DNA from: Sandaracinus sp.
Lineage (GTDB): Bacteria; Myxococcota_A; Polyangia; Polyangiales; Houyiibacteriaceae
Length of the DNA stretch: 64,000 nt
Assembly: GCA_002699025.1 (NCBI GenBank)
Contig: PABA01000088.1
Coordinates: 1-64,000 of the forward strand
Direction of reading: 5' to 3'
The notes beneath the pieces are model-generated. The model was not told the origin of the DNA and did no database searches. It worked only from the letters and a program-made list of their open reading frames with translations. Position numbers and translations under genes: made by a program. Shown here one piece after another: positions 45,664 through 58,025 of this stretch; positions within the stretch are counted from its first letter, which is position 1, and every line of letters starts with the position of its first letter.

Positions 45664-46848
45664 CTACGCGCCGACGACGCGGGGCGCGTCCATGGGGTGG
45701 GGGGCTTCGACGCGTCCCGCTCGGTCGCGTCCCGCCTCGTCGCGTGCTGCCTCGTCGCGCGTCGCCTCGTCGCGTGCCGCCTCGCTCCGTGTCGCGAAGC
45801 CGAGCGGCTCGAGCGCGCTCGCGAGCGCGTCGGCGAGCCGCAGCACGATGGCGCGCGGCTCCCGCTCCTCCAGCGCGGGCAGCACCCGCGGCGCGAGCCC
45901 GACCCCCGCCGCCAGGGCGTCCCGGGCCCGCTCGCTCCGGCGCACGTCGGCCTCCCGCTCCGCGCGGAGCTGGGCGAGGGCCGCATGGGGCGAGCCCCCG
46001 TCCTCCGCCCGCAGCCAAGTCGGCAGCTCGAGCGAGGCCCGGTTGAGCCACGCGGCCTGCGGCCGGACCCCCGCTTCCCGAAAGGCGCCGGCGAGGTGGA
46101 TGGCGTCGGCCACCGAGGAGCCGGTCGGCGCCGCCACGAGCACGCCCCGCGCGTCGCCCCCGCCGAACCACTCGTGGGCCCGTCGCGCGCGTTCCGCGAA
46201 GGCCTCGCGCGCGCCGGCCAGCGTCGCGAAGAACGCGGCGCCTTCGGCGATCACCTCGGCCGGGAGCACCCGCCCGACCGCGTCCTCGACGCGCTGTCGC
46301 GCCCAGCCCAGCCCGACCGCGTCCATCCAGCTCCGCCGCGCGCCGCCGAAGCGGGCGAACCACTTCACGGTGCGCCCGCTGAGCACGCGCGCCAGCTGAG
46401 TCGGGTAGGCGAGGAAGTCCAGGGCGTGCCGGCTCGGCGCCGTGTCGAGGACGAGCGCGTCGGGCGGGTCGTCGGCCAGCCGCTCGGCGAGCCAGAGCAC
46501 GGAGGCGATCTCGTGCATGCCCGCCGGCGCCTCGCGGAAGATGCGGTAGACGGCGTTCTGCTCCATGCGCGCGCGGTCCTCGGCCGGGAGGAGCCGCTCG
46601 AGGAGCCGCGGGAGCACGGCGCCCGGCTCGGGCATCAGCGCGCTCAGCCGCCCTGCCTCGGCGCCGCCGAACGAGACGGGCTGGGGCTCGGTCGAGAGCG
46701 GGACGCCGAGGGCGTCGGCGAGGCGTCGCGCCGGGTCCACGGTGACGACGACCGCGCGCTGGCCGGCGCGGGCGAGGGCGAGGGCGAGGGCGGCCGAGCT
46801 GCTGGTCTTGCCGACCCCACCTCCGCCGGCGACGAGGATGACCCTCAC
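45664..46848 (-). CDS. ArsA/GET3-family ATPase lacking the signature Lys
   Basis: 394 residues from a GTG overlapping the upstream stop (GTGA). Deviant Walker A near residue 8 reads GGGGVGKTS: the P-loop Lys is present, but the signature Lys of KGGVGKT is Gly. Switch motifs follow: VVTVDPARRLADALGV and LVLDTAPSRHALDFL. Family members are dimeric ATPases for tail-anchored proteins or anion pumps. The C-terminus carries a pentapeptide repeat (EAARD-type) encoded by a 15-bp DNA repeat at 45709-45783, followed by a His/Pro tail. It most likely pairs with the protein encoded just upstream. Confidence 0.88.
   Translation of the reverse strand: MRVILVAGGGGVGKTSSSAALALALARAGQRAVVVTVDPARRLADALGVPLSTEPQPVSFGGAEAGRLSALMPEPGAVLPRLLERLLPAEDRARMEQNAVYRIFREAPAGMHEIASVLWLAERLADDPPDALVLDTAPSRHALDFLAYPTQLARVLSGRTVKWFARFGGARRSWMDAVGLGWARQRVEDAVGRVLPAEVIAEGAAFFATLAGAREAFAERARRAHEWFGGGDARGVLVAAPTGSSVADAIHLAGAFREAGVRPQAAWLNRASLELPTWLRAEDGGSPHAALAQLRAEREADVRRSERARDALAAGVGLAPRVLPALEEREPRAIVLRLADALASALEPLGFATRSEAARDEATRDEAARDEAGRDRAGRVEAPHPMDAPRVVGA
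45709..45783. repeat. 15-bp repeat in the ArsA-like gene 3' end
   Basis: Five copies of a 15-bp unit (GTCGCGTGCCGCCTC-like on the plus strand) in register with the reading frame, encoding five EAxRD-type pentapeptides. The complement resembles the 15-bp unit in the receptor gene at 48288. Confidence 0.85.
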
Positions 46849-47696
46849 GCCGCCACCCCCTCGAGCGTCGAGGCATCGCCTGGGGCGAGGCCGGGCCGCA
46901 GGAGCCAGCGGGCCGCGAGCTCCGGCTCGGGATCGCGGGCCGCGCGGGGGAAGAAGCGCACCGGCGCGGGGGCCGCCTCCCGGGCGGCGCGGGCGGCCAG
47001 GTCCCGGGCGGCGCGCCGCTCCGCGCGGGCGGCCGCGAGGGGCGCGTCCAGGGCGGCGTCGGGGAGGTCCTTCAGCGCGGGGAGCGGCGCGGGCACGCGG
47101 TTGACGACGAGCGCGCCGGCGGGGGCGTCGCTCGCACGGAGCGCCTCGAGCAGCTCGGCGGTCTCGCGCCAGACGAGCGGCTCGGGGAGGCCGACGACCA
47201 CGACGGCGGAGCGCTCCGGGCGGAGCAGCTCCTCCTCGAGCCGGACGGTGAAGCGGTGCGCGGCGCCGGCGCGCGTGAAGCGGCGGAGCTGGTCAGCGGC
47301 CCGGAGCCAGGCGAGGCCGTGGCCGGTCGCCGGGAGCTCGACGACGATGCGCGTGTCGGGCGCCTCGGCGGCCCAGCGGCGCACCTGCTCGAGCAGCGCG
47401 AAGGCGCGGATGGCCTGCGCCGCGTCCAAGAGGCGCTGCACGGCGCTCCGCCCGAGCACCGCCTTCGCGAGCGTCCGCGACCCGAAGAGCTCCGTCGCGG
47501 CGGCCTCGAAGGCGGCGTCCACGTCGAGCGGGCGCACGTCGAACGAGCGCGCGCCGCCGCGCGGCGGGTCGATGGCGGCGAGCAGCGCACGCTCGCCGCG
47601 CGCCACGGCCGCGGCGGCGAGGCCGGCGGCCACGGTGCTCTTGCCGACCCCGCCCTTGCCGGTGACGAGGAGAACCTGTGGAAGTGCGTCGATCAC
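46845..47696 (-). CDS. ArsA/GET3-family ATPase with intact signature Lys
   Basis: 283 residues from GTG 47696. Walker A reads VTGKGGVGKST with both the signature and P-loop Lys. Switch regions are diverged: AAIDPPRGGARSF replaces the usual DPAHS, and IVVELPATGHGLAWL corresponds to the DTAPTGHTLRLL region. It is shorter than typical ArsA. Translationally coupled to the larger partner at 45664, suggesting a heterodimer in which only this subunit supplies the trans-acting Lys. Divergent from the cobalamin riboswitch; client unknown. Confidence 0.87.
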   Translation of the reverse strand: MIDALPQVLLVTGKGGVGKSTVAAGLAAAAVARGERALLAAIDPPRGGARSFDVRPLDVDAAFEAAATELFGSRTLAKAVLGRSAVQRLLDAAQAIRAFALLEQVRRWAAEAPDTRIVVELPATGHGLAWLRAADQLRRFTRAGAAHRFTVRLEEELLRPERSAVVVVGLPEPLVWRETAELLEALRASDAPAGALVVNRVPAPLPALKDLPDAALDAPLAAARAERRAARDLAARAAREAAPAPVRFFPRAARDPEPELAARWLLRPGLAPGDASTLEGVAA

Positions 47697-47845: not shown

Positions 47846-48057
47846 CGTCGGAGACGTGTGCGTCGAGGGCGCGCCCGGCGAGCTGGAGACGGGGGATCGG
47901 GAGAGACAGCCCGATCCTCGGAGAGAGGGAAGCCGGTGAGAATCCGGCGCGGACCCGCCACGGTATGCGGCCCAACACCCTCGCCACGAAGCCACTGGGC
48001 AGCACGCCCGGGAAGGCGGCGAGGGACACGGCCACGAGCCCGGAGACCTGCCCGACG
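47846..48057 (+). ncRNA. Cobalamin riboswitch
   Basis: All signature parts are present. P1 arms CGTCGG (47846-47851) and CCGACG (48052-48057) pair. The conserved core GGGAAGCCGGTGAGAATCC begins at 47927 and continues into CGGACCCGCCAC. The B12 box GCCACGAGCCCGGAGACCTG lies at 48031-48050. It precedes a B12 uptake operon, so it should repress it when adenosyl- or other cobalamins are bound. A TTGACA at 47766-47771 might be the -35 of its promoter; the -10 is weak. Confidence 0.93.
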
Positions 48058-48129: not shown

Positions 48130-48163
48130 GATCGGGCTTCTTCGCGGCGGAAGAAGCCCGATC
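48130..48163 (+). promoter_or_regulatory. Riboswitch expression-platform hairpin
   Basis: Perfect 14-bp stem (GATCGGGCTTCTTC and complement) with a GCGGCG loop, ending five bases before the TTG start at 48168. Its 3' arm contains the only purine-rich ribosome-binding candidate (CGGAAGAAG). Only GCGTTTG follows, so control by hiding the ribosome site is more likely than true termination, although either is possible. A smaller GGTCGG/CCGACC hairpin lies just upstream. Confidence 0.7.
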
Positions 48164-48167
48164 GCGT

Positions 48168-50519
48168 TTGCGCCTCCTCCTCGCCAGCCTCGCCGCCCTG
48201 CTGCTCACCGCCCCCGCGGCGGGGCAGGCGCCCGTGCGCGACGCGGGGGGCGGCGAGGAAGAGCAGGGCCGAGCGCCGTGCCAGCCAGCGCGAGGCCGCG
48301 GCGCGCGAGGCGGTGACGCGCGAGGCGGTGGCGCGCGAGGCGGTGACGCGCGAGGCGGTGACGCGCGAGGTGGTGACGCGCGAGGCGGTGACGCGCACGA
48401 ATTTGGCGCGCAGGGTGACCCCTGCGCCGAGGCCGGAGACCATCGTCGGCGGGCCCGCGCGTCCGGCGCGGTCCCCGCGCGGGTGGAGAGCGACGCGACG
48501 ACGGATCCGCTCGAGGCGAGCGAGGGCACGCCGGAGACCGCCGAGCGGCGCGAGCCCCCGCCCGACGATGGCGCCGTGGCCACGGAGGGCGGCGCGGACG
48601 CGGAGCCGAGCTTCGGTGCCACGGCCCAGATCGAGGCGCCCCTCGCCGCGACGAACGACCTCGACGCGACCGCCGCGGGCACGGAGGTCTCCGCCCGCGA
48701 CCGCAGCGCCGCCGACGGCACGGTCCAGGAGCTCCTCTTCGAGATCCCCGGCACCCACGTCGTCCAGACCGGCGCCCAGGGCGCCTTCTCGAGCGTCGCC
48801 CTCCGCGGCGCCGAGCTCGGCCAGACCACCTTCCTCCTCGGCGACCTCCCCCTCAGCGGGCCCGACACGGGCGCCGTCGACCTCAGCCTCTTCCCCCTCG
48901 CCGCCTTCGAGCGCGTCGAGGTCTACCGCGGCGGCGCCCCGGCCTGGCTGCACACCAGCGCCATCGGCGGCGTCGTCCGCCTCGTCCCGCGCCAGGTCAC
49001 CCGCCCCACGCTCTGGGCGACGGCCACGGGCGGCAGCTTCGGCTCCTGGCGCGCGGACGTCGGCTCCGCCCTCCGCGCCGGCCGCACGCGCCTCGTGCTC
49101 GGCGCCGGCGCCGACGGCAGCCGCGCCGACTACCCCTTCGAGTACGACAACGCCACGCGCTTCGATCCGAGCGACGACGAGACGCGCCGCCGCGCCAACG
49201 CCGACACGCTCGGCGCCCACGCCCTGGCCCACCTCGAGACCGAGCTCGCTCGCGGCCGCCTGAGCGCCGTGCTCCTCGCCACCTCGCGCCGCGGCGGCGC
49301 GCCCGGGGCCGGCGCCAGCTACGCGCTCCGCGCTCGCCGCAACGACGTGCGCCTCCAGGGTTCGCTCGCCTACGTGCACCGCTTCGAGCGCGCGCGCCTC
49401 CAGCTCGCCGCCGGCGGCGGCTTCCAGCGCCACCGCTTCACCGACCGCTACGGGGAGGTCGGCCTCGGCCGGCAGGCCACCGACGATCGCTTCGGCCACG
49501 GCTTCGCGCGCGTCGCGAGCGTCATCGCGCTGCACGAGGTGCTCGACCTGACGCTGGTCGGGAGCGCGCGCTGGGACGGCTACCGCCCGGAGAACGTGCT
49601 CGGCTTCGAGGAGAGCGACTCACAGCGGACCAGCCTCGCGGGCGGCGCGGAGCTCCGGCTCCACGGGCGCCTCGGCGGTTGGCGCTTCGAGCTCCGCCCC
49701 TCCGCGCGCCTCGTCCGCTCCCGGACCGAGACGCACGGCTACATGGGCTTCCGCGGCGAGGAGCAGCGCTTCGAGCAGGGGGTCACGCGCCCGACCTTCC
49801 GCGTCGGCGCCGCCATGAGCCCCGTCCCGGCGCTGACCTTCACCACGTCGGCCGCGAGCGGCGTGCGCCTCCCCTCCATGCTCGAGCTCTTCGGCAACCG
49901 CGGCGCGCTCCTCCCCGCGCCGGACCTCGACCCCGAGACCGGCCGCAGCCTCGACGCCGGCGCCGTGCTGCGGGGGCGCGCCGGGCCGCTCCGAGGCGCG
50001 GCCGAGCTCCGCGTCTTCCACCTCGCCCTCGACGACCTCATCCGCTATCGGCAGACCTCGCAGTACACGGCGAAGGCCGAGAACGTGCTCGAGGCGAGCG
50101 TGCGCGGGCTCGAGGCCGGGCTCCGCGGGCGCCTCGGCCCGCACCTCGGCCTCCACGGCGCGCTGACCTGGATGGACGCGCGGGCCCCCGGCGGCGCGAC
50201 GCTGAACTGGCGACCGCGGCTCCAGGCGCAGGTGCAGCCGGAGGTGCGCACGGGGCCGCTCGGGCCGCTCCGCGACCTCGTCTTCTTCGCGTCGCTCATC
50301 CACCGGAGCGCCTTCTTCCAGGACCCGGCCAACCTGGTCGAGGTCGAGGCCCGGAGCTGGCTCGGCGCCGGCGTGCGCGTCGACCTCGCCTGCGGCGTCT
50401 CCGCCCACTTCACGGCCCGCGATCTCCTCGATCAGCGCGGCCAGGACTACGTCGGCTTCCCGCTCCCGGGGCGCCGCTTCGCCTTCACGATCCGCTACCG
50501 CATGGAGCTCGCACCTTGA
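48168..50519 (+). CDS. TonB-dependent cobalamin receptor (BtuB-like)
   Basis: 783 residues from TTG 48168, the only start giving the signal peptide (RLLLASLAALLLTAPAAGQ). A 15-bp DNA repeat (48288-48392) then encodes ARGGD pentapeptides, followed by an acidic linker to about residue 150. The plug domain (about 180-290) has VQELLFEIPGTHVVQTG, FSSVALRGAELGQTTFLLGDL and VEVYRGGAPAWL. The rest is a 22-strand-type barrel ending FAFTIRYRMELAP, with the typical DLLDQRGQDYVGFPLPGR region. The riboswitch and downstream btuCDF genes point to cobalamin. The long repeat-bearing N-terminus is unusual. Confidence 0.92.
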   Translation: MRLLLASLAALLLTAPAAGQAPVRDAGGGEEEQGRAPCQPARGRGARGGDARGGGARGGDARGGDARGGDARGGDAHEFGAQGDPCAEAGDHRRRARASGAVPARVESDATTDPLEASEGTPETAERREPPPDDGAVATEGGADAEPSFGATAQIEAPLAATNDLDATAAGTEVSARDRSAADGTVQELLFEIPGTHVVQTGAQGAFSSVALRGAELGQTTFLLGDLPLSGPDTGAVDLSLFPLAAFERVEVYRGGAPAWLHTSAIGGVVRLVPRQVTRPTLWATATGGSFGSWRADVGSALRAGRTRLVLGAGADGSRADYPFEYDNATRFDPSDDETRRRANADTLGAHALAHLETELARGRLSAVLLATSRRGGAPGAGASYALRARRNDVRLQGSLAYVHRFERARLQLAAGGGFQRHRFTDRYGEVGLGRQATDDRFGHGFARVASVIALHEVLDLTLVGSARWDGYRPENVLGFEESDSQRTSLAGGAELRLHGRLGGWRFELRPSARLVRSRTETHGYMGFRGEEQRFEQGVTRPTFRVGAAMSPVPALTFTTSAASGVRLPSMLELFGNRGALLPAPDLDPETGRSLDAGAVLRGRAGPLRGAAELRVFHLALDDLIRYRQTSQYTAKAENVLEASVRGLEAGLRGRLGPHLGLHGALTWMDARAPGGATLNWRPRLQAQVQPEVRTGPLGPLRDLVFFASLIHRSAFFQDPANLVEVEARSWLGAGVRVDLACGVSAHFTARDLLDQRGQDYVGFPLPGRRFAFTIRYRMELAP
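48288..48392. repeat. 15-bp repeat in the receptor N-terminus
   Basis: Seven copies of GCGCGAGGCGGTGAC with few changes, in frame, encoding ARGGD pentapeptides. In another frame the unit reads EAVTR, close to the EAxRD of the ArsA-like protein. Confidence 0.88.
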
Positions 50520-51913
50520 TCCGCAGCACCGCTCTCTCTCTCGCGCTCGCCCTCGCGCTCGCCTGCGGCGACGACGACGGCATGAGCCTCCCCGACGCCA
50601 CCACGGACCTCGACGGGGGCGCGACCCTCGATGGGGGCGGGGAGGACGCCGGCCCGCCCGCCGATGGAGGCAGGGACGCCGGCCCGCCGCCGCTCTGCCC
50701 GACCGACACCCCGGTGCTCGACGCCGCCTCCGGGACGCCCGCCTTCGCCGTCGTCGGCAGCGACTACACGAGCACCTCCCTCGCGCTCCTCGGCGCCGAC
50801 GGAGCCGTGCTCGACGAGGGCTGGATCGACTCGGGCACGACCGACCCGGGCCTCGTCTCCACGCTCGGCGGCGACGTGGTGGTCGCCTCGAACGGCCCCG
50901 CCGGCACGATCACGATCGTCGACCGCTTCGGCGTCGACGTCCTCTCGCGCTTCTGCCTCGACGGAAGCCTCGTCGGCCAGCTCCGCGCGACCGCGGTCGA
51001 GGGGTGGGGGCCGAACCCGCGCGACTTCGAGGTCGTCGACGCGGACGAGGCCTGGGTCTCCCGCTACGAGCCGAACCCGGCCGAGGACGCGCCGACGCTC
51101 GAGCGCGGCACCGATCTCCTCGGCGTGAACCCGACCACCATGGAGCTCGACGGGGGCCGCGTGGACCTCACGGTCTTCAGCGAGACCGTCACGGGCCTCG
51201 ACGGCGAGGGGATGGAGACGGATGTCGCCGTCGCCGCCCGGCCCGACGCGATCGTGCGCCGCGGCGACTTCCTCGTCGTCGGCCTCGACCGGATCCCCGT
51301 CGACCTCTTCGGCGAGGCCCGCGGCTACGGCGACGGGCGCGCGGCCCTCGTCGACCTCGCGGACGGATCGGTGGAGCCCATCGAGCTGAGCGGCCTGGCC
51401 AACTGTGGCAGCGTGCAGGCCGTGCCCGGCAGCGAGACCGACGTCATCGTGGCCTGCAGCGGCTACAGCACCATGGGCTTCGGCGACGCCGCCGGCGAGC
51501 GGATGACCACGGGGCTGGTGCGCCTCCGCGTCTCGGCCGAGGGCGAGGTGAGCGAGGAGCAGCGCTGGGCCGCGACCGACGACGACGACTCCATCGTGGC
51601 CGTCGGCGGCCTGGTCGTGCTCGGCGAGGACGACGTGGTGGGCGTGGCGCCCGGCAACTTCGCGGACGTGAACGACCGGCTCGTCCGCACGAACATGGCG
51701 ACCGGCGTGCAGGAGGTCGTGGCCACGGCGGGCGGCTCCTTCGTGCTGGGCGGCGGCGCCACCGACGGCGCGGGGCTCCTCCTCGTGCCGGACGCGACCG
51801 ACGGCGAGGCGGCCGTGCGCGTCTTCACCGTGACCGCCGAGGCGATCACCGAGGGCACGGCCCTGCCGGTCGGCCCGACGACCCTCCCGCCGCGCTCCAT
51901 CCACCCGCTCTGA
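50516..51913 (+). CDS. Propeller-like lipoprotein of the B12 operon (BtuG-like candidate)
   Basis: 465 residues from a TTG overlapping the receptor stop (TTGA). Lipoprotein signal LSLALALALACGDDDG, then an Asp/Gly/Pro linker. The body is beta-rich with repeated blade-like phrases (FAVVGSDYTSTSLALLGADG, STLGGDVVVASNGPAGTITIVDRFG, LVDLADGSVEPIELS), consistent with a seven-bladed YncE-type propeller. In Bacteroides, BtuG is a surface propeller lipoprotein that caps BtuB and captures B12; the gene order and coupling here suggest the same role. That is an inference from context and fold impression. Confidence 0.78.
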   Translation: MIRSTALSLALALALACGDDDGMSLPDATTDLDGGATLDGGGEDAGPPADGGRDAGPPPLCPTDTPVLDAASGTPAFAVVGSDYTSTSLALLGADGAVLDEGWIDSGTTDPGLVSTLGGDVVVASNGPAGTITIVDRFGVDVLSRFCLDGSLVGQLRATAVEGWGPNPRDFEVVDADEAWVSRYEPNPAEDAPTLERGTDLLGVNPTTMELDGGRVDLTVFSETVTGLDGEGMETDVAVAARPDAIVRRGDFLVVGLDRIPVDLFGEARGYGDGRAALVDLADGSVEPIELSGLANCGSVQAVPGSETDVIVACSGYSTMGFGDAAGERMTTGLVRLRVSAEGEVSEEQRWAATDDDDSIVAVGGLVVLGEDDVVGVAPGNFADVNDRLVRTNMATGVQEVVATAGGSFVLGGGATDGAGLLLVPDATDGEAAVRVFTVTAEAITEGTALPVGPTTLPPRSIHPL

Positions 51914-52016: not shown

Positions 52017-53036
52017 ATGAGCGACGCCTCCACCGAGCCTCGGCGGCGACGCGCCGGGGCGGTCCGCCTCTACGCGGCGCTCGTCGCGCTCGCCGCCGCG
52101 GCCGCCTTCGCCTCCCTCTCCGTCGGCGCGGCCGACCTCGGCGAGGAGGCGCTCCGCCAGACGCTCCTCTCCCTCCGCGGCGCGCGCCTCGTCGGCGCGT
52201 CCCTCGCCGGCGCGGCGCTCGCCGCCGGGGGCGTGCTCGTCCAGGGCCTCTTCCGGAACCCGCTCGCCAGCCCCTCGATCCTCGGCACCACCGCCGGCGC
52301 CGCCCTCGGCGGCCAGCTGGCGCTGCTCCTGGTCCAGGGGCTCGGCCTCGGGATCGGCTTTTCGCCCGAGATGGCGCTCCCCCTCGGCTGCCTCGCCGGC
52401 GCCGGGCTCTCCCTGCTGATCCTGCTCGTCTTCCTCCGCGCGACCGACGACCTGCTCGCGCTCCTCCTCACGGGCTTCATCCTCGGCTCGCTCTTCTTGA
52501 GCCTCGGCGGCTTCATCACGAGCCTCGCCCAGGACGACTGGCAGCTCGGCCGCGCCGTCGTCGCCTTCTCGCTCGGCGGCCTCGGCGGCGTGGGCTGGGG
52601 CCAGGTGCTCGCCGCGCTCCCGCTCTTCGCCGTCGGCCTCGTCGCGGCCTGGGGCTGGGGCCGCCCGCTCGACCTGCTCCTCGCGGGCGAGGACGAGGCG
52701 CGCACGCTCGGCGTGGACGTCCGCGTCGTCCGCACCTGGACCGCCGTCTGGGTGAGCGCCCTGGTCGCCGCGGCCGTGGCCCTCGGCGGGAACGTGGCCT
52801 TCGTCGGGCTCATCGTGCCCCACGCGCTCCGGCCCTTCGCCGGCGTGGCCCACCGGCGCCTCCTGCCGGCCGCGGCCCTCGCCGGCGCCGTCTTCGTCGC
52901 GGGCTGCGACGTGCTCGCGCGCGCCATCCCCTCGCGCGGGGAGGTGCCCCTCGGCGTCGTCACCGGCCTGGTCGGCGCGCCGATCTTCCTCTGGCTCCTG
53001 ATCCGCGCCCGGCGGGAGGAGCGCGGCGATGTCTGA
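52017..53036 (+). CDS. btuC: Cobalamin ABC transporter permease (BtuC, FecCD family)
   Basis: 339 residues with about nine to ten TM helices (AALVALAAAAAFASLSVG through PIFLWLLIRARR). The FecCD signature NVAFVGLIVPHALRPFAG is present, as is an NPLASPSILGTTAGAALGG-type stretch near the start (quoted in part), typical of BtuC/FhuB. It should form the inner-membrane channel as a homodimer with BtuD. The ATG overlap region and the 8-bp overlap with btuD show tight coupling. 103 bp separate it from the lipoprotein gene; this gap holds a purine-rich stretch but no hairpin. Confidence 0.93.
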   Translation: MSDASTEPRRRRAGAVRLYAALVALAAAAAFASLSVGAADLGEEALRQTLLSLRGARLVGASLAGAALAAGGVLVQGLFRNPLASPSILGTTAGAALGGQLALLLVQGLGLGIGFSPEMALPLGCLAGAGLSLLILLVFLRATDDLLALLLTGFILGSLFLSLGGFITSLAQDDWQLGRAVVAFSLGGLGGVGWGQVLAALPLFAVGLVAAWGWGRPLDLLLAGEDEARTLGVDVRVVRTWTAVWVSALVAAAVALGGNVAFVGLIVPHALRPFAGVAHRRLLPAAALAGAVFVAGCDVLARAIPSRGEVPLGVVTGLVGAPIFLWLLIRARREERGDV

Positions 53037-53829
53037 GCGCGTCGACGAGGCGAGGGCCCCGGCGCCGGCCGTCCGCGCCCGGGGCTTGACCGTGCGTCGG
53101 GGCGCCCGCGCCGTCCTGGAGGACGTCGAGCTCGAAGCAGCGCGCGGAGAAGTGCTCGCGCTCCTCGGGCCGAACGGCGCCGGCAAGAGCACGCTCCTCC
53201 GCGCCCTCGCGGGGCTCCTCCCCCTCGCCGAGGGCCACCTCGAGCTCGCCGGCGGCCCGCTCGCGGCCATGGCGCCGCGCGAGCGGGCCCGGGCGCTCGC
53301 CTACGTGCCCCAACGCTCTCTCCTCCGCTCCGCGCTCCTCGTCGAGGAGGTCGTCGCGCAAGGCCGCTACGCCCACGGGCGCGCCCTCGGGGGGCTCCAG
53401 GGGCGGGACGCCGAGGCGGTCGACCGCGCCCTCGCCGAGGTCGACGCGCTGGCCTTCCGCGGGCGGGCCTTCCCGCGCCTCTCGGTCGGTGAGCAGCAGC
53501 GCGTGCTCCTCGCGCGCGCCCTCGCCACCGAGGCGCCGCTCCTCCTCCTCGACGAGCCGACCGCCCCCCTCGACATCGCGCAGGCCCTCGCCACCTTCGA
53601 CCTGCTCCGGCGCCTCGCCGACGCGGGGCGCGCCGTGGTCGCCGCCGTGCACGGGCTCGACGCGGCGCGCCAATTCGCCGATCGCGCGCTCCTGCTGCAT
53701 GCGGGCCGGGTCGCCGCGAGCGGGCCGGTGGAGGAGGTCGTTGCCCCCGAGCCCGTCCGGCGCGTCTACGGCGTCGAGCTCCTCGAAGGCGCCGCGCTCG
53801 GCTTCCGCCGGGAAGGGGAGGGCGCGTGA
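53029..53829 (+). CDS. btuD: Cobalamin ABC transporter ATPase (BtuD)
   Basis: 266 residues. Walker A GPNGAGKST near 45-53, Q-loop YVPQRS, signature LSVGEQQ (the usual LSGGEQ with Val), Walker B LLLLDEPTAPLD and H-loop AAVHGLD. It is a standard iron/B12-type importer ATPase. It overlaps btuC at its start and btuF (GTGA) at its end. Confidence 0.93.
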   Translation: MSERVDEARAPAPAVRARGLTVRRGARAVLEDVELEAARGEVLALLGPNGAGKSTLLRALAGLLPLAEGHLELAGGPLAAMAPRERARALAYVPQRSLLRSALLVEEVVAQGRYAHGRALGGLQGRDAEAVDRALAEVDALAFRGRAFPRLSVGEQQRVLLARALATEAPLLLLDEPTAPLDIAQALATFDLLRRLADAGRAVVAAVHGLDAARQFADRALLLHAGRVAASGPVEEVVAPEPVRRVYGVELLEGAALGFRREGEGA

Positions 53830-54758
53830 GCCGGCTCGGCCTGCTCAACCTCGGCGCCCTCCTCGCGGCCCTCGCCGGGACCCTCGCGCTCGGCGCGCGC
53901 GGCGCGTCCTTGCGCGACGCGGCGCCCGCTCGGTCTTCCTCCGAGAGCCTCCGCGACGCCACCGGCGTGGCCGTGCCCGTCGCCCCCTACGCGCGCGTCG
54001 TCAGCGCGAGCACCGTCGCCGACCAGGTCCTGCTCGAGCTCGTCGCCCGCGAGCGCGTCGCGGCGCTCACGGCCTACGGCGCGCGCACCAGCCCGACTCC
54101 CTGGCGCTACGCGGGCCTGGAGACCATCGACGCCCTCGACGACCTCGAGGCGATCCTCGCCCTCGAGCCGGACCTCGTCGTCGTGAGCAACGTCGCGAGC
54201 TCCCGGCGCGTCGCGCGGCTCCGCGAGGCCGGCCTCCGCGTCTTCGACCTCGGCCCCATGGGCGGGCGCGCGACCTTGCTCGAGGACGTGCGCCAGCTCG
54301 CCGCGCTCCTCGCCGTCCCGGCGCGCGGGGAGGCCCTGGCCGAGCGCTTCGCCCGGCGCCTCGACGCCGTCGCGCCCCCGCCCGGTCCCGACGCGCCGCG
54401 GGCCCTCTACGTGCAGCGGCTCGGCGCCGAGATCTACGGCGGCGCCGCGGGCACGAGCTACCACGACGTCCTCGAGGCGGCCGGGCTGCGCGACGCCGCC
54501 GCCGAGGCGGGGCGCGAGGGCTGGCCGCGCTACGCCGCCGAGGAGCTGCTCGCCCTCGATCCGGACCTGCTCGTCACGCCCGCCGGCGGCGAGGAGGCCG
54601 TCTGCCGCTTCCCCGGCCTGGACGCGCTCCGGGCCTGTCGCGGGGGGCGCGTCGTCGGCGTGGACGACGCGCTCCTCGGCGATCCGGGCTTCGGCATGCT
54701 CGGCGCCGCCGAGGCGCTCGTCGACGCGCAGGCCCGGCTGGACCCGCCCGGGCGTTGA
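53826..54758 (+). CDS. btuF: Periplasmic cobalamin-binding protein (BtuF-like)
   Basis: 310 residues from a GTG overlapping btuD. The N-terminal hydrophobic segment (LLNLGALLAALAGTLALGA) lacks a lipobox, so it is a cleaved signal or membrane tether. A type III binding-protein fold follows: RVVSASTVADQVLLELV, LEPDLVVVSN, LREAGLRVFDLG, ALYVQRL and LDPDLLVTPAGG. It should hand B12 to BtuCD. Confidence 0.88.
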   Translation: MSRLGLLNLGALLAALAGTLALGARGASLRDAAPARSSSESLRDATGVAVPVAPYARVVSASTVADQVLLELVARERVAALTAYGARTSPTPWRYAGLETIDALDDLEAILALEPDLVVVSNVASSRRVARLREAGLRVFDLGPMGGRATLLEDVRQLAALLAVPARGEALAERFARRLDAVAPPPGPDAPRALYVQRLGAEIYGGAAGTSYHDVLEAAGLRDAAAEAGREGWPRYAAEELLALDPDLLVTPAGGEEAVCRFPGLDALRACRGGRVVGVDDALLGDPGFGMLGAAEALVDAQARLDPPGR

Positions 54759-56950: not shown

Positions 56951-58025
56951 GCGGGCCCGGGCCGCGGCCGCGCGCGGAAGGCGGAGCCGGCGCGGCGGCG
57001 GAGGCAGACGGGCCGGGGTCGGAAGAGCGGGCGGACGAGCCGGGCTCCGATGAGCCGGGCTCCGATGAGCCGGACGCCGATGAGCCGGACGCCGGGGAGC
57101 CGGGCTCCGATGAGCTCGGTGCGGAGGGCGACGCGGCGCTCGGCGGCCTCTGCTGGAGCCAGCGGCGGACGGCGGGGAGCCCGACGCGCAGGAAGACCGG
57201 ATGGCCGAGCTCCGGGAAGGCCTCCTCGACCTCCGCGCGGAGCGTCGCCGTCGACGCGTCGGGGTGGGCGCGCACGAGCGCCTCCACCCGATCGAAGTAG
57301 GCGCGCTGCGCGCGGAGGAGCTCGGGGCCTCCGCTCGCGCCCCGACCGGGGTGTAGCCAGCGCGGCGAGAGCGCGGCGAGCTCGTCCAGCCGGGCGCGCC
57401 AGGCGTCGAGGTCCCCGAGCTCCATCCAGGCGTGGTGCCCGTTCGCGAGGAGGTCGCCCACGAAGAGGTGGCCGGCATGCTCCACGACGAGCTGGGCCGT
57501 GCTCACGCCGGGCCCCAGCACGTGCACGCGGAGGCGGAGCCCGGCGAGCTGGAGCGTCTCCGTGTGGTCCGGGAAAGGCGTCGGCGCCGGCGTCTCGGCG
57601 GGGTAGTCGGGGGCGTAGCGCGCTTCGAACCAGCGCCGGCGGATGGCGTCCACCTCCGGGATGGCGGCCGCCACGGAGGTCGCCGTCCAGACCTCCACGC
57701 CCGCGGTCTGGAGCGCCGGCGTGCCGTTGAACTTGTCCGGGTTGGCGTGGAGCACGAGCGCGTGGGTGACGGGCTGGCCCGTGGCGCGTTCGGCGGCGGC
57801 CTTCGCGCGGAGCGCCTCCGAGGGCGTGAACTGCGTATCGATCAGGACCGTGCCCTCGGGGCCGGCGATCCAGAAGCTGTGCGTGCGGAAGGCGCGAGGC
57901 CCGCTGGTGTAGACGCCGACGCCATCGCCGAGGTCGGGGCCGGGGCGAGGCGCGGGGGAGGGCGGCGCCGCCGACGAGGACGCGCCGCAGGCGGCCAGGA
58001 GGAGCAAGAGGGGGAGGGGGCGCAT
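56928..58025 (-). CDS. MBL-fold lipoprotein with altered metal motif
   Basis: 365 residues with a short lipoprotein signal (PLPLLLLLAACGASS). The metallo-beta-lactamase fold is clear (FWIAGPEGTVLIDTQF, LFVGDLLANGHHAWMELG), but the HxHxDH metal loop reads HANPDKFNG, so the usual two-metal site is changed. The C-terminus carries Ser/Glu/Pro/Gly pentapeptides (SSEPG) from a 15-bp repeat and then Ala/Pro-rich sequence. Its 3' end overlaps the converging kinase gene by 23 bp. Substrate unknown; a non-canonical enzyme or binding protein. Confidence 0.82.
   Translation of the reverse strand: MRPLPLLLLLAACGASSSAAPPSPAPRPGPDLGDGVGVYTSGPRAFRTHSFWIAGPEGTVLIDTQFTPSEALRAKAAAERATGQPVTHALVLHANPDKFNGTPALQTAGVEVWTATSVAAAIPEVDAIRRRWFEARYAPDYPAETPAPTPFPDHTETLQLAGLRLRVHVLGPGVSTAQLVVEHAGHLFVGDLLANGHHAWMELGDLDAWRARLDELAALSPRWLHPGRGASGGPELLRAQRAYFDRVEALVRAHPDASTATLRAEVEEAFPELGHPVFLRVGLPAVRRWLQQRPPSAASPSAPSSSEPGSPASGSSASGSSEPGSSEPGSSARSSDPGPSASAAAPAPPSARGRGPGPLSAAARA
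57037..57126. repeat. 15-bp repeat in the MBL gene 3' end
   Basis: Six copies of GAGCCGGGCTCCGAT and variants at exact 15-bp spacing, in frame on the minus strand, encoding SSEPG-like pentapeptides. Confidence 0.88.

Follow-up and report, generated by a model that had tools for sequence, protein, structure and literature searches.

BtuG1, BtuG2 and BtuG3 of Bacteroides thetaiotaomicron are propeller lipoproteins with an N-terminal linker, and the btuB and btuG genes of Bacteroides are adjacent to each other under cobalamin riboswitches (PMC6143338, PMC10404256). In a survey from 2018 of 313 human gut genomes, BtuG was found in Bacteroidetes only (PMC6143338). Its further features are a very tight binding of cobalamin, a stable complex in which it caps BtuB at the cell surface, and an export signal of Bacteroidetes lipoproteins that follows the cysteine. 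Two other kinds of lipoproteins need to be considered. XusB is a xenosiderophore lipoprotein of the DUF4374 family that binds ferric siderophores (PMC13142918), while BtuJ/DUF4465 proteins are cobalamin-binding lipoproteins of riboswitch operons with a jelly-roll fold (PMC12751083, PMC13398666).

The window studied here, a stretch of 64,000 nucleotides from Sandaracinus sp., contains a lipoprotein gene (LIP) that was put forward in an original prediction as a candidate BtuG analogue in the Myxococcota. LIP resembles BtuG in having a lipoprotein signal with an anchor cysteine, an N-terminal linker and a predicted propeller, and in that its gene adjoins btuB in cobalamin-riboswitch loci. BtuG is also its best structural match in the PDB when the overall fold is compared. 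However, there is no detectable sequence relation between the two, whereas the BtuG family itself was collected by BlastP, and the host of LIP belongs to a different phylum from that of the BtuG export signal.

Operon structure and a probable need for vitamin B12

On the forward strand of the window, a cobalamin riboswitch is followed by the genes for a BtuB-like receptor, LIP, a FecCD permease, an ATPase and a BtuF-like binding protein (Table 1). The lipoprotein ORF was confirmed at its predicted coordinates, including the signal peptide and the lipobox-like motif, and the predicted riboswitch upstream of the receptor gene was recovered, with no other RF00174 match detected in the host genome of 9.24 Mb. 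The overlap of LIP with the receptor gene was likewise found. LIP starts with TTG at 50516 and stops at 51911-51913, and its start shares the tetranucleotide TTGA with the receptor stop codon TGA at 50517-50519; GGAG at 50504-50507, ahead of the LIP start, is a plausible ribosome site. The permease, ATPase and binding protein genes overlap each other by a few bases.

Table 1. Positions of the riboswitch, the genes and the LIP segments of the operon in the window.
Feature	Position	Strand	Evidence
Cobalamin riboswitch aptamer (RF00174)	47926..48049	+	Infernal 76.4 bits, E 4.6e-17, gathering 31.5
Perfect 14-bp hairpin (GATCGGGCTTCTTC/GAAGAAGCCCGATC), between riboswitch and receptor start	48130..48163	+	sequence
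BtuB-like TonB-dependent receptor, 783 aa	48168..50519	+	PF07715 and PF00593
LIP, candidate BtuG-like propeller lipoprotein, 465 aa	50516..51913	+	ORF, 4-base overlap with receptor gene, propeller-like model
LIP signal peptide and lipobox-like ALALA/C17	50516..50566	+	translation
LIP acidic low-complexity Gly/Asp-rich linker, residues 18 to ~60	50567..50689	+	translation
LIP predicted propeller domain, modelled residues 59-465	50690..51910	+	AlphaFold2 model
FecCD-type permease (BtuC-like)	52017..53036	+	PF01032 E 3e-68; best NCBIfam model BtuC, below cut-off
ABC transporter ATPase (BtuD-like)	53029..53829	+	PF00005
Periplasmic binding protein (BtuF-like)	53826..54758	+	PF01497 (Peripla_BP_2) E 1e-15; BtuF model E 3e-7, below cut-off

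The hairpin between the riboswitch and the receptor start has a fold of -67 kcal/mol (z -3.2 versus shuffles) and is likely to represent an expression platform that hides the ribosome site of the receptor. The heptamer CCCGATC at 47910-47916, 5' of the aptamer, is complementary to GATCGGG of this hairpin, a possible alternative pairing for riboswitch switching. Two adjoining ArsA-type ATPase genes on the reverse strand (45664-47696) are divergent from the B12 operon. Tandem repeats with a 15-bp unit are present at 45707-45784, 48288-48396 and 57037-57115, and the array at 48288-48396 is located in frame inside the N-terminal part of the receptor.

The receptor contains a plug at approximately residues 179-269, followed by the barrel. 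Its best NCBIfam model is TIGR01779 (TonB-B12), with 82.6 bits and thus far under the cut-off of 599.7, and it also matches NCBIfam siderophore receptor models. The best PDB sequence matches of the receptor are all E. coli BtuB (E ~5e-13). For the ATPase, the top NCBIfam scores were obtained with heme, corrinoid and F420-0 ABC ATPase models, all below their cut-offs.

The host genome, which is 96% complete, encodes metH (1700 bits). The models for metE, cobB and cobQ gave no match in this genome, where assembly gaps could hide genes, and the host is probably a B12 scavenger. The presence of metH, the lack of matches to metE, cobB and cobQ, and the single cobalamin riboswitch together suggest that the host depends on imported B12, with this operon as the riboswitch-controlled route for it.

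Sequence features of the LIP family

Alignments of 23-49 relatives show a conserved family, so the LIP ORF is not a chance reading frame. The anchor cysteine is present in 22 of 23 aligned members, and a simple lipobox rule picked out 69 of 79 members of the family. In the window, the residues from the anchor cysteine onward are CGDDDG; the length of the linker differs among the relatives. Two cysteines, Cys297 (51404-51406) and Cys314 (51455-51457), are invariant in all 23 aligned members, and the same alignment shows many further conserved residues. The net charge of the LIP propeller is -44, with a family median of -24. BtuG2 is also negatively charged (-18), a likeness to be read with the reservation that such genomes may commonly encode acidic lipoproteins.

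LIP matched no Pfam family, no NCBIfam family and, by phmmer, no PDB sequence. When all PDB sequences were searched with the LIP family, by phmmer and with two profiles, BtuG was likewise absent at E values up to 10. The Pfam model of XusB (DUF4374) gave no match in any aligned member at E values up to 0.1. Although the DUF4465 family includes some Myxococcota members, LIP differs from BtuJ both in its predicted fold, a propeller rather than a jelly-roll, and in that no LIP member matches the Pfam model DUF4465.

Distribution of LIP and its pairing with BtuB

LIP was identified in 68 of the 97 genomes of the host's family and order by a single-query search, and in 61 of 286 genomes sampled across the Myxococcota by a profile search. 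A contig scan with the single sequence retrieved no relative. With a narrower LIP alignment as the query, 27 loci were obtained, the broad alignment being without a usable stretch. The named relatives are from metagenome-assembled genomes labelled Myxococcota, Myxococcales, Deltaproteobacteria, Sandaracinaceae and similar, including Myxococcales bacterium SG8_38.

A cobalamin riboswitch is located on the same strand within 9 kb upstream of 43 of the 71 LIP matches, as compared to approximately 0.08 expected by chance. In one large genus and several others, LIP has a riboswitch of its own about 90-330 bases upstream, and many of these genes adjoin a separate riboswitch-BtuB unit. Outside the window, 37 riboswitch-BtuB operons were readable (another five, truncated at contig ends, were not included), and LIP is adjacent in 28 of these and not adjacent in nine; the nine genomes concerned all carry LIP elsewhere. 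Another 20 loci, mostly from other families or classes of Myxococcota, showed LIP directly after BtuB in 19 cases, the lone exception starting at a contig edge, and the riboswitch was visible in the fetched stretch at 15 of them. The count of 37 operons and the neighbourhood map are based on an iterated profile, although most of the loci were also found by the single-query search; the divergent members L152 and L155 rest on the iterated profile. Thus, the co-occurrence with riboswitch-btuB, which had been set out beforehand as a check, holds across both the order and the phylum, and LIP is far from absent from most of the operons.

The map based on the iterated profile also showed a locus (L101 in genome G036) where two LIP copies flank BtuB, in the order riboswitch, LIP, BtuB, LIP. 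Considering all genera with LIP, BtuB or the riboswitch is found beside the gene in 28 of 35, and neither of them in the remaining seven, in which some members may have another function. Loci with neither BtuB nor a cobalamin riboswitch nearby include L109-L113, L116, L118 and L120 of families f11 and f12. The scanned neighbours at the f11 and f12 loci contained no transport genes, and these members are possibly unlinked partners or proteins with another function.

Cobalamin-riboswitch operons of the order repeatedly contain a second lipoprotein family, here called LIP2 (L104:6511-7254 plus 37 other ORFs). It is often encoded between the riboswitch and BtuB or LIP, and was not seen in the window. 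All 28 scanned members match the NCBIfam model NF033170 (LIC_13355 family lipoprotein), and the operon context suggests a role in B12 for this family. The structure model of LIP2 had a pLDDT of 31 and was built with four sequences only.

Predicted fold and comparison with BtuG

An AlphaFold2 model of LIP, built with 23 relatives, is all-beta with 28 strands (pLDDT 92.7, pTM 0.92). This is consistent with a seven-bladed beta-propeller, the blade number being derived from the 28 strands as seven times four. In a comparison of the model with 350,542 PDB chains, the top three matches were 8okv_D, 8bmx_D and 8okv_B, with E values of 1e-9 to 3e-9. These entries represent BtuG3-CNCbl (8okv) and BtuG2-CNCbl (8bmx) (PMC10404256). 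The superposition is moderate, with TM scores of 0.54-0.59 by query and 0.64-0.71 by target, an rmsd of 6-8 Å and 11-13% identity. Close behind BtuG are the lactonase-like propellers 3scy and 3fgb at ranks four and five, and XusB at rank six. According to the model, the propeller fold is right and BtuG is the nearest structure, but the PDB ranking by itself proves neither function nor descent. The blade-like beta repeats noticed in the original prediction are borne out by this high-confidence model, with seven-bladed propellers as its best matches. The proposed comparison with BtuG gave the expected outcome, and the model does not show a non-propeller fold.

The lower-ranked matches bear on two other explanations. 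Lactonase-like propellers among the top five, together with the genera that have LIP copies away from BtuB and the riboswitch, would fit with LIP being a propeller enzyme or a structural lipoprotein with an unrelated function that is simply co-regulated with the operon. We regard this as very improbable, because in many families LIP recurs immediately after BtuB, and in several genera it is preceded by its own riboswitch. LIP could also capture another ligand, such as a siderophore, heme or a B12 precursor or analogue, in which case the receptor would not be strictly a cobalamin receptor. XusB is, like LIP, a propeller lipoprotein, and it works with a TonB-dependent transporter; moreover, the receptor in the window scores far below the TonB-B12 cut-off and matches siderophore receptor models too. 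The gene of XusB, whose ligands are ferric siderophores, has genes for a TonB transporter and for PepSY proteins as neighbours. However, XusB ranks below BtuG. A cobalamin riboswitch controls the operon, or LIP itself, across the phylum, the closest PDB sequence to the receptor is BtuB, and the host probably needs imported B12. Another ligand is therefore decidedly unlikely. Riboswitch, receptor and BtuB pairing all count against both explanations.

Proposed role and origin of LIP

We consider it likely that LIP is an outer-membrane accessory lipoprotein of the B12 uptake system, acting as a BtuG-like, cobalamin-capturing partner of BtuB. The computed results, namely the operon with its riboswitch, the lipobox, a predicted propeller fold to which BtuG is closest, and the conserved pairing with BtuB, all point in this direction. 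LIP is not classed as BtuG itself, although it probably works in the same way: it shares the fold, lipoprotein and neighbourhood features but lacks the sequence homology; the binding of cobalamin and the complex with BtuB are ascribed to it by analogy.

Following the same analogy with BtuG, LIP would be surface-located, bind cobalamin, contact BtuB and hand its ligand over. At low cobalamin, the riboswitch would permit expression of the operon, and the receptor and LIP would be produced together through coupled translation. LIP would then be lipid-anchored via Cys17 and tethered by its acidic linker, so that the propeller could sit on BtuB at the cell surface. One face of the propeller would bind cobalamin with high affinity and subsequently pass it to BtuB, which would import it with TonB energy. 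The FecCD, ATPase and BtuF-like proteins would finally take cobalamin across the inner membrane.

The lipobox and the operon are equally compatible with an outer-membrane lipoprotein that faces the periplasm, and the computed results fit an anchor in either leaflet. Such a protein might take cobalamin from BtuB on the inside, or aid in the assembly of BtuB or the docking of the ABC transporter. We consider this unlikely, given that the operon already encodes a periplasmic binding protein of the BtuF type and that BtuG and XusB, surface lids or capture proteins that serve TonB receptors, are among the best structural matches.

The fold match and the co-occurrence with riboswitch-btuB thus support the candidate BtuG analogue. 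The suggestion of a parallel solution held in part: LIP has no detectable sequence relation to BtuG, but an independent origin did not follow, since the structural match is close enough for distant common ancestry. LIP and BtuG may share such an ancestor within the propeller superfamily. Conversely, B12 uptake with a lipoprotein lid may have arisen independently in the Myxococcota, where a propeller family unrelated in sequence, and maintained together with BtuB phylum-wide, would have converged on the fold and job of BtuG; this is possible, but we find it somewhat doubtful.

As for the newness expected in the original prediction, the literature searched mentions no counterpart of BtuG in the Myxococcota, although papers outside the open literature could contain one. 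LIP is best read as a partner of BtuB that captures B12 in the manner of BtuG, which would be new outside Bacteroidetes as far as the searched literature goes. Its predicted fold and its recurrence with BtuB across the Myxococcota suggest that lipoprotein-assisted capture of B12 extends beyond Bacteroidetes. If this is true, the unannotated LIP protein family would gain a role. Should environmental bacteria have such a counterpart throughout a phylum, the lid device would be peculiar neither to the gut nor to Bacteroidetes, and LIP offers a second case for how lids transfer their ligands to TonB-dependent receptors.
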